The notes beneath the pieces are model-generated. The model did no database searches. It had not been told where the DNA came from and was given only the letters and a program-made list of their open reading frames with translations. A stretch of 64,000 bases of DNA from Oscillospiraceae bacterium (GTDB taxonomy: Bacteria; Bacillota; Clostridia; Oscillospirales; Oscillospiraceae). Made by a program: the position numbers and the translations under genes. Below are positions 28,588 through 64,000 of this stretch, piece after piece. The stretch lies in assembly GCA_015067495.1 (NCBI GenBank), contig SVMI01000003.1, forward strand, positions 116,971 to 180,970, written 5' to 3'. Each line of letters begins with the position of its first letter. The stretch's first letter is position 1.

Positions 28588-28662
28588 GGTACCGTAGCCA
28601 AGTGGTAAGGCCCCGGTCTGCAAAACCGTTATTCGCCAGTTCAAATCTGGCCGGTACCTCCA
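28588..28662 (+). tRNA. tRNA-Cys(GCA)
   Basis: Cloverleaf; cggtctGCAaaaccg; CCA encoded. Confidence 0.94.
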
Positions 28663-28700
28663 AAACAAAACGCACACCATAAGGTGTGCGTTTTGTTTTG
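28661..28700 (+). terminator. Terminator-like hairpin directly after tRNA-Cys
   Basis: aaaacaaaacgcacacc-ataa-ggtgtgcgttttgtttt. Confidence 0.85.
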
Positions 28701-28717
28701 GAGAAAAACAGGACGGA

Positions 28718-28834
28718 CAGATTTGAAGATCTGAATGCAACAGTCCGGGGGACTGTTGCCGCCGACGGCTGGACGGAGGCGAACCTTAATTTTTGCCTTC
28801 GGCAAAAATGCAAACAAATCTGGCCGGTACCTCC
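28718..28834 (+). repeat. tRNA-tail-associated structured repeat, copy A (inverted T-arm segment + about 80-bp core + duplicated tRNA-Cys 3' end)
   Basis: Core 28733-28814 nearly identical to minus-strand cores at 63562-63640 and 63730-63808; 20-bp caaatctggccggtacctcc repeated at 28642-28661 and 28815-28834. Confidence 0.9.
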
Positions 28835-28837
28835 GTG

Positions 28838-28873
28838 AAAAACGACAAGTTTCAAAAGAAACTTGTCGTTTTT
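28838..28873 (+). terminator. Terminator-like hairpin after the duplicated tRNA-Cys tail
   Basis: aaaaacgacaagtttc-aaaa-gaaacttgtcgttttt. Confidence 0.85.
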
Positions 28874-28876
28874 CAA

Positions 28877-29064
28877 TGATATCCGTTCCTTTCGGAACGG
28901 GTGATATATCTTTGATGTGATATCGCTCTTCGAGCGGTGATATATACCTTCGGCATATGAAGGAACGGATATTATATCGTGCTTGCGAAGCAAGTATATC
29001 ATGCGGCGAATGCCGTATATCATATTGCGTTAGTAATATATCATTCAGAATCCGAAGCAATAAT
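28877..29064. repeat. Array of variable mini-hairpins joined by near-constant GATATATC-type spacers
   Basis: tgatatCCGTTCctttcGGAACGGgtgatatatc...gatatCGCTCttcGAGCGgtgatatata...tatatcatGCGGCgaatGCCGTatatcat. Confidence 0.75.
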
Positions 29065-40959: not shown

Positions 40960-41211
40960 AAAAAACGCCTCAAGCAAAAGCTTGAGACGAGCAAAAACAT
41001 ACCCGCGGTACCACTCAAATTGCAACAGCTGTTGCCACCTTCAGACTCCAACAAGTCCTATCCCTTAACGCGGGCAAACGGGAGAAGCCTACTCATGACA
41101 CTTTTCAGTCCTCCGGCTCGGAAGTGATAGGTATGCGGAGCGAAAATTGCCGGTTTTCACCAACCACCGACTCTCTGAAAATTTCCTGCTCCAACCGTCT
41201 TCGTCAAAGCC
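40960..41211 (-). promoter_or_regulatory. T-box riboswitch, specifier ATC (Ile) at 41126-41128
   Basis: CAGAGAGTCGGTGGTTGGTGAAAACCGG; CCTATCACTTCCGAGCC specifier loop; GAGTGGTACCGCGGG (41001-41015); terminator CGTCTCAAGC/GCTTGAGGCG + T-run. Confidence 0.92.
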
Positions 41212-41229
41212 TTTTTCCATGTTGCAAAC

Positions 41230-41346: not shown

Positions 41347-41365
41347 GTCACATATATGTTTGAAA

Positions 41366-41615
41366 GACTTTGATGGAAATCTCGTCCTTTCCGGGACGCT
41401 TCAGAGAGCCGGCGGTTGGTGTGAGCCGGTGCGGAAGGGCTGGACGATCTGGTTCCGGAGTCGATCCTGTGAACGGCTGCTTAGTAATGGGATCCGTATT
41501 CCTGCGTTAAAGGATAGCGCTTGTTGGAGCGTGAAGAGATCTCCCGTCAGGGGGATAATCAGGGTGGTACCACGGATAGAAATTCGTCCCTGAGGCAGCT
41601 TGCCTCAGGGCTTTT
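41366..41615 (+). promoter_or_regulatory. T-box riboswitch, probable specifier CTG (Leu) at 41449-41451
   Basis: CAGAGAGCCGGCGGTTGGTGTGAGCCGG; GACGATCTGGTTCCGGAGTC specifier loop; AGGGTGGTACCACGG T-box (41561-41575); terminator CCTGAGGCA/TGCCTCAGG + T-run. Confidence 0.9.
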
Positions 41616-63510: not shown

Positions 63511-63539
63511 AAAGCCGGTGCCTATAAAGCACCGGCTCT
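63511..63539 (+). terminator. Rho-independent terminator
   Basis: agccggtgc-ctataaa-gcaccggct. Confidence 0.85.
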
Positions 63540-63706
63540 TGGCGGAGTGAGAGGGATTTGATTTGCATTTTGCCGTTGGCAAAACTAAGGTTCGCCTCCG
63601 TCAAGCCGTCGGCGGCAACAGTCCCCCGGACTGTTGCATTTAGAACGGTTCAAATCCCTTTTATCATCTTAACAAATAAAGACCGCCGAATGGCGGTCTT
63701 TATTCG
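63539..63706 (-). repeat. tRNA-tail-associated structured repeat, copy B (minus orientation), with tRNA-Ser-like 3' end
   Basis: 168-bp unit; minus strand ...GGGATTTGAAC-core-CAAATCCCTCTCACTCCGCCA; unit ends in aataaagaccgcc/ggcggtctttatt hairpin. Confidence 0.92.
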
Positions 63707-63874
63707 TTGGCGGAGTGAGAGGGATTTGATTTGCATTTTGCCGTTGGCAAAACTAAGGTTCGCCTCCGTCAAGCCGTCGGCGGCAACAGTCCCCCGGACT
63801 GTTGCATTTAGAACGGTTCAAATCCCTTTTATCATCTTAATAAATAAAGACCGCCGAATGGCGGTCTTTATTTG
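63707..63874 (-). repeat. tRNA-tail-associated structured repeat, copy C, tandem duplicate of copy B
   Basis: Same 168-bp unit with two C/T differences by eye. Confidence 0.92.
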
Positions 63875-64000
63875 TTGTGTAAGGACTATAAAAAAGATAT
63901 TTTCGGCCGTTTTGCGTATGACTTCGAACTCTCACAAAACATCTTGAGCTTTCTAATTTAGTGTGTGGTGGTGAGCCACCGTCAATCGATTAGTGGCTGT

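Follow-up and report, generated by a model that had tools for sequence, protein, structure and literature searches.

Repeats behind tRNA genes of Oscillospiraceae carry arms matched to the adjacent tRNA and resemble the RtT repeats of Escherichia coli

Our analysis describes a family of short, structured repeats that follow the tRNA and tmRNA genes of Oscillospiraceae and that, as a rule, are closed by two arms matching the tail of the very tRNA behind which they are located. Based on this design, the elements very probably correspond, in clostridia, to the RtT repeats of enterobacteria known from E. coli. We propose, with a probability of roughly 0.6, that they represent RtT-like non-coding repeats closed by a helix, P1, which is formed by an antisense arm (S') and a sense arm (S), and that these arms originate from template switching and are then partly kept by a fold of the sense strand. 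The window, the whole stretch of 64,000 nucleotides that was analysed, belongs to an Oscillospiraceae genome (assembly GCA_015067495.1), which is referred to as the host genome or G000; G-numbers designate genomes and L-numbers designate loci. It harbors three copies of the element, A, B and C.

Copy A and the displaced copies B and C

Copy A occupies positions 28718-28834 on the plus strand, 3' of the gene for tRNA-Cys(GCA) at 28588-28662 on the same strand, which was identified by ARAGORN and Rfam. The tRNA gene is followed by terminator 1 (28663-28703, plus strand), a perfect palindrome, CTCCAAAACAAAACGCACACC ATAA GGTGTGCGTTTTGTTTTGGAG, which reaches into the CCA end of the tRNA and, according to sequence, fold and mirror geometry, forms the mirror axis between the tRNA-Cys tail and S'. 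The element itself, with all its parts on the plus strand, starts with S' (28718-28727, CAGATTTGAA), which in comparison with the tRNA is antisense to nt 54-63 of tRNA-Cys. S' is followed by the junction J1/2 (28728-28736, GATCTGAAT), which is conserved in part in the alignment, by hairpin P2 (28737-28759, GCAACAGTCC GGG GGACTGTTGC), on which fold and covariance model agree, by hairpin P3 (28760-28781, CGCC GA CG GCTGGA CG GA GGCG) with a tandem G.A internal loop, by hairpin P4 (28789-28809) and by the junction GCAAA (28810-28814), which is conserved in the alignment. The element ends with S (28815-28834, CAAATCTGGCCGGTACCTCC), in which 20 nt of the tRNA-Cys tail, beginning at nt 56 and running through the acceptor stem, are repeated in sense orientation. 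Both arms correspond to T-loop, T-stem and acceptor sequence of this tRNA, S' as antisense and S as sense copy. The first eight letters of S', CAGATTTG (28718-28725), pair with the start of S, CAAATCTG (28815-28822). Directly behind copy A, at 28837-28874 on the plus strand, the sequence predicts terminator 2 with a 17-bp stem and a 4-nt loop. Compared to shuffled sequence, copies A, B and C yielded folding z-scores of -6.0, -5.7 and -5.4, respectively. Rfam searches, covering the window at the gathering threshold and nine loci at E values up to 5, assigned the core to no known family. Elsewhere in the window, Rfam identified two T-box leaders in divergent, adjacent arrangement, one at 40980-41216 on the minus strand and one at 41361-41594 on the plus strand.

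Copies B (63538-63659) and C (63706-63827) are located on the minus strand. Copy B extends from S' at 63650-63659 through the core and S, a tRNA-Ser(GCU)-like tail, to about 63538, and copy C, with S' at 63818-63827, is a tandem duplicate of B which includes the terminator. Both share the arm AGGGATTTGA and the tail TCAAATCCCT, the latter at 63552-63561 and 63720-63729, and their arms equal the tail of tRNA-Ser(GCU), ...TCAAATCCCTCTCACTCCGCCA. A tRNA search of the window, which stops at the contig end, detected no tRNA gene beside B and C. The tRNA-Ser(GCU) gene of the host is located on another contig with no element 3' of it; in other genomes (L153) the element lies directly 3' of tRNA-Ser(GCU). 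The most plausible reading of B and C is that of a displaced array, and a tRNA gene next to them may have escaped detection beyond the contig end. As tRNA-adjacent copies they were ruled out, since no tRNA adjoins them within the contig. In the stretch 63541-64000, B and C adjoin the end of the window, which is also the end of the host contig (C6).

An initial annotation of the window had compared the three copies. Re-reading of their sequences located all quoted sequences at the positions given, and the comparison proved to be accurate: between A and B/C, two pairs of the arms are changed on both sides, and the terminal hairpin differs symmetrically by one pair. Similarly, the copy A arm matches the tail of tRNA-Cys and the B/C arms match that of tRNA-Ser(GCU). 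The more general statement that the arms covary with the tRNA they abut applies to copy A and to the family as a whole, but has to be withdrawn for B and C, which abut no tRNA gene.

Spread of the family and match of the arms

A DNA search of the host genome located the element at 14 places. A covariance model for this core (type I), which was built from 15 copies and has 92% of cells paired, displays two-sided changes in 29 of its 37 pairs and returned 16 matches in the host genome. Type I is present in 53 of the 61 genomes of the genus, with up to 24 copies per genome, and absent from 8 of the 61 at the threshold used. It was further found in four of 199 genomes sampled from the order and, among 399 genomes sampled across the phylum, exclusively in the host. 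Records sharing a 25-base motif with the element are mostly metagenome-assembled genomes of uncultured Oscillospiraceae, many of them with ruminant gut sample names. The element has a size of roughly 100 bases and the inserts comprise about 100-170 bp. Nearly all copies with sufficient contig sequence reside about 40-58 nt 3' of a tRNA or tmRNA gene on the same strand, and 34 kinds of tRNA/tmRNA carry type I copies (154 copies grouped), including most isoacceptors and tmRNA. On the tRNA strand, the layout is tRNA, terminator, S', core, S and terminator. Tandem units such as B and C occur at L148, L152, L167, L176 and L178. The type I core was not matched among phage and plasmid records; two IMG/VR contigs carry copies. 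On one of these (L334), the element adjoins a tRNA-Thr which is cut in the region of the anticodon loop, and this edge is possibly the border of a provirus integrated in tRNA-Thr.

The relation between arm and tRNA was determined by a shuffle test on 127 non-redundant copies, in which the arms, with anchors defined by the element, were compared to their own tRNA and to shuffled tRNAs. At nt 56-63, S' was perfect with respect to its own tRNA in 77% of the copies and S in 91%, compared to 8% (maximum 16%) and 9%, respectively, for shuffled tRNAs; the acceptor part of S (nt 66-73) was perfect in 62% of copies and in 2% after shuffling. Thus, the arm strongly depends on the identity of the tail, which is the opposite of the independence that the initial annotation had named as the observation that would speak against its claim. 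As all T-arms are alike and the TTCRA of the T-loop is universal, part of every arm match is trivial, and it might be argued that any arm would match by chance or as an alignment artefact. This explanation is refuted by the shuffled tRNAs, for which perfect arms amount to 8-9% as opposed to 77-91%, and perfect acceptor parts to 2% as opposed to 62%.

The extent of the match differs between both arms. Among 105 copies, the identity of S' to the antisense tRNA is 96-100% at nt 54-62 and reaches chance level by nt 69. The identity of S to the tRNA is 92-99% at nt 56-69 and still 63% at the CCA; its left edge is sharp at C56, with nt 55 at chance, and from nt 56 S reaches the tRNA 3' end in 42 of the 105 copies. 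In about 8% of copies S' is extended as antisense of acceptor and CCA, with 0.4% expected by chance. The idea that S' invariably inverts the whole of tail and terminator was rejected, as this extension is limited to those 8%. In a further unit behind tRNA-Pro(GGG) (L040, about 1650-1800), the antisense part covers CAAGAGGCCTCG, which are letters of the tRNA 5' of the T-arm, and the mirrored segment is thus not always confined to the tRNA tail.

Two more core types, II and III, occur in the same layout. Type II is located behind tRNA-Asp in the host genome (L060) and behind several tRNAs in another family (L062-L067). Type III follows the genes for tRNA-Glu, -His, -Leu(GAG) and -Ser(GGA) in the host genome and was detected in 34 of the 199 genomes of the order, many of these matches being weak; in the type III and related loci that were inspected from other families, the preceding gene encodes tRNA-Leu, -Ser or -Ala and the arms match it. 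By inspection, at least 16 of the 45 tRNA/tmRNA genes of the host are directly followed by an element of these kinds.

Origin of the arms and constraint on the fold

Within a single genome, cores that are 87-95% identical are found behind different tRNAs, each with its own matched arms. Such cores reside behind tRNA-His, -Gly(CCC) and -Asp in G021, behind tRNA-Val(CAC) and tmRNA in the host genome and behind tRNA-Arg and -Glu in G251. In these same-genome alignments, the identity of the cores is limited by ...TCGAA to the left and by GCAAAC to the right. Where S is intact, the sequences of both terminators agree (alignment score of at least 22) in 18% of the copies, compared to 0.2% for terminators from different loci, and the duplicated block therefore extends from tRNA nt 56 to roughly the end of the terminator. 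Furthermore, when the T-arm is reflected across the terminator axis, its image coincides with S' to within about 5 nt in most of the 127 copies. One change could be followed in an orthologous trio behind tRNA-Pro(CGG) (L071, L177 and L188), in which the core is common to all three. Left of S', L188 and L177 exhibit CAGG(G/A)GCGCA; in L071, CAGGGGCGCA has been changed to TCGGAATGGC, which is antisense of the acceptor with one mismatch, and terminator 1 is the same in L071 and L188. Here, S' was rewritten as antisense tRNA by one multi-base change in a single lineage, by which an imperfect inverted repeat became a near-perfect one. This is the signature of a template switch, of which L071 is the one clear case. 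Template switching creates and repairs RNA hairpins and is able to rewrite inverted repeats in one event (Monttinen and Loytynoja 2022, PMC8794818).

Taken together, the mirror geometry, the direct duplication, the rewriting event and the limits of the core at letters of the T-loop render template switching the most likely source of the arms, for which we would accept even odds. The switches might take place during DNA replication at two fold-back points, one in the T-loop of the tRNA and one at the terminator hairpin. Replication would stall, the nascent strand would fold back on the terminator and the tRNA tail would be copied as S' up to the universal TTCRA of the T-loop, where microhomology would then allow the strand to acquire a core from the repeat of another tRNA. 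The strand would subsequently go back to its own T-loop and re-copy S and the terminator. Afterwards, P1 and the hairpins would be kept, at least partly, by constraint on the sense-strand fold. In the simplest case this would be the fold of an RNA that is produced by read-through or is released from the pre-tRNA transcript by processing, in keeping with the E. coli annotation of RtT/RttR. The order of the switches, the ectopic donor of the core and the constraint at the RNA level are what we infer, as are the role of the cores and the way in which they spread. Template-switch (quasipalindrome) mutation as described (PMC8794818) readily accounts for the creation or repair of an arm in one step and for two-sided changes; it is known as a mutational mechanism and not as a family of repeats with a constant core which moves among tRNAs. 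A simple mirror-copy model would require extra decay of, or selection on, S' to account for the acceptor part, which is far better conserved in S than in S'. It also speaks against the proposed mechanism that only one clear rewriting event could be polarised and that no pair of sequences before and after an insertion was found: flank matching yielded differences in the number of units and orthologous occupied sites, but no clean empty site to set against a fresh insertion.

Alternatively, the elements might be inserted site-specifically. A tyrosine recombinase would integrate a small non-autonomous element at the T-loop, so that S would be the displaced half of attB and S' and the core would be contributed by the element. 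T-arms of tRNAs are common att sites, and tRNA-targeting integrative elements likewise leave the tRNA 3' end, starting in the T-loop, as a direct repeat, as is the case for S with its sharp edge at nt 56 and its frequent extension to the tRNA 3' end (42/105 copies). Such an integration would, however, depend on att sequences pre-matched to each tRNA, yet near-identical cores carry different arms. The duplicated block takes in the terminator, and the elements differ from integrative elements in their antisense arm and their tiny size, with inserts of about 100-170 bp which contain no integrase. We therefore consider integration an improbable origin.

Similarly improbable is a dedicated mobile element of the retro- or single-stranded DNA type, in which S' would serve as a guide to tRNA T-arms and would be corrected against the target upon insertion. 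It would agree with the short reach of the S' match, which in most copies is restricted to some 10 nt at the T-loop, and with a direct repeat that starts at nt 56 and stops near the end of the T-tract of the terminator, a span close to the 3' part of the pre-tRNA transcript. The enzymes to be expected in carriers are missing from several genomes rich in copies. Reverse transcriptase (RVT_1), as in retroelements and retrons, was not found in G000, G017, G025, G251 and G252 (11-21 copies each), and Y1 transposase, as in REP-type (RAYT) systems, was not found in G000, G025, G035 and G251 (11-18 copies each). G000, G025 and G251 thus possess neither and still carry 11-18 copies, and no protein partner was seen. 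Accordingly, both enzymes were rejected as drivers; other recombinases, or loss of the enzyme, may be compatible with these genomes. The initial annotation had further considered a recombination substrate or a transposition intermediate, which finds no support in the host genome, where neither Y1 transposase nor RVT_1 was found.

Since inverted repeats can be rewritten by one mutational event, as exemplified by the L071 trio and by published work (PMC8794818), covariation alone does not prove selection, and because compensatory changes in stems can arise by mutation alone, evidence for constraint has to come from other sources. The selected structure for which the initial annotation had argued is therefore confirmed as a folded element with genuine covariation of arm and tail, but the covariation is insufficient to demonstrate selection. 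In the stems, as read on the tRNA strand, G.U outnumbers A.C by 88 to 29 in all copies, by 39 to 18 in 63 non-redundant representatives (p=0.004) and by 20 to 4 in 22 non-redundant representatives (p=0.0008), an excess to which strand-biased mutation of transcribed DNA and the leaning of covariance-model alignments to pairs may contribute. The numbers indicate that pairing favours the tRNA strand. Several unpaired positions are almost invariant in the alignment, and the retention of S' is limited to exactly the P1 segment. The bias of G.U over A.C and the retained P1 segment are independent of covariation and hint at selection. Constraint at the RNA level might thus equally well exist or not; that the elements fulfil a specific cellular function appears doubtful.

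If the arms were matched purely by selection, the elements would be cis-regulatory or processing RNAs in which P1 and the hairpin of tRNA and S' tune termination, 3' processing or the decay of read-through pre-tRNA. This would be in line with the pairing bias towards the sense strand, the conserved unpaired positions, the fixed place and strand behind tRNAs and the mutual exclusion of the S:S' and S':S foldings. It is at odds with the 8 of 61 genus genomes lacking copies at the threshold used, with the loss, tandem amplification and displacement (B/C) of copies, with at least one arm that was rewritten in one event and with cores that are completely different between types, and we regard it as unlikely. 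Pairing with the T-arm of the tRNA, as brought forward in the initial annotation, is one option, as S' pairs just as well with the S of the same element or, across the terminator, with the tail of the tRNA. The well over a hundred tRNA-matched inverted repeats provide a natural data set to separate template-switch mutation from selection on RNA, and they caution that mutation of inverted repeats can generate covariation, the evidence by which RNA structures are usually proven.

Relation to RtT and other repeats

RtT RNA (RF00391), which comprises the tyrT/tyrV distal repeats and RttR, exhibits the same design: it is located behind a tRNA on the same strand and has an antisense arm, a multi-hairpin core, a sense copy of the tail up to the CCA and tandem units. 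Its closing helix in Rfam, GGGGAAGGAU:AUCCUUCCCC, consists of the antisense and the sense tail of tRNA-Tyr and ends in CCACCACCA. The clostridial elements share the position 3' of a same-strand tRNA, the closing helix of antisense and sense tail and the tandem units of tail and terminator. Two further tRNAs were found to be followed by the RtT core. In Klebsiella and E. coli this is tRNA-Pro(CGG), where the arms read GAGGAT / ATCCTCTATCACCGACC and the terminator has been copied; in Providencia it is tRNA-Lys, where the arms read GTGCAGG / CCTGCACGACC. Matched arms at tRNA-Tyr, -Pro and -Lys reveal that the enterobacterial arms also follow the tRNA. In E. coli K-12 (NC_000913.3), an RtT-type element with a duplicated terminator resides behind proK (L377), where the annotation examined shows no feature; it includes a second S', behind which a different palindromic sequence is located. 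A site without RtT was sought behind proK of E. coli, and K-12 proved to be occupied as well. Since the laboratory strain K-12 has this layout at both proK and tyrTV, direct tests of origin and function are feasible there. Among open-access papers, to which our search was confined and which do not include subscription titles such as older studies on tyrT, no earlier account of tRNA-matched repeats was found.

Nine clostridial loci did not match RF00391 at E values up to 5, nor did the window at the gathering threshold. The design is common to both groups of elements; as judged by sequence, the cores are unrelated and the clostridial elements are not members of RF00391. They differ from RtT in their hairpins and junctions and are located behind most isoacceptors and tmRNA, as opposed to the few tRNAs found here for RtT. 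Conversely, RtT additionally contains a sense copy of the 5' strand of the T-arm, and its tyrT locus includes the small protein gene tpr. In K-12, RttR carries an annotation as small RNA. With the clostridial elements, RtT, so far a little-studied oddity of E. coli, would become one example of a design found repeatedly, with unrelated cores, in unrelated bacteria. More speculatively, repeats armed with tRNA tails, with unrelated cores in Oscillospirales and Enterobacterales, might form a bacteria-wide class that spreads from tRNA to tRNA by rewriting of the arms and yields a structured RNA derived from pre-tRNA with a common function in tRNA biology; we consider this extension rather unlikely.

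REP/BIME-type repeats and palindromic repeats of Gordonibacter are likewise short intergenic mosaics of several hairpins, and the hairpin GCAACAGTCCRGTGGACTGTTGC is common to the latter and the clostridial elements. In contrast to REP/BIME, the clostridial elements have arms derived from the tRNA of the host, and the host genome is devoid of Y1 transposase. The hairpin ACAGTCC-GGT-GGACTGT recurs between core types and is also a module of non-tRNA repeats in Gordonibacter. In this genus, which belongs to another phylum, the GTCATCCTGAGC...AAGGATCC repeats (L232, L281, L286, L287 and L297) embed the P2 hairpin and are located away from tRNAs in the loci read. Gut-1 RNA (RF01706) is also composed of several hairpins and is located directly 3' of copy A; it is a separate family of different sequence, in which no tRNA-derived arms were seen. 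The stretch at 28837-28950, which comprises terminator 2 of copy A and the multi-hairpin Gut-1 array GAAAAACGACAAGTTTC...AATGATATCCGTTCC, is found a second time in the host genome, with hardly any change, directly 3' of tRNA-Gln (L127). Terminator and Gut-1 array represent a second repeat family at tRNA ends, which carries its own terminator.
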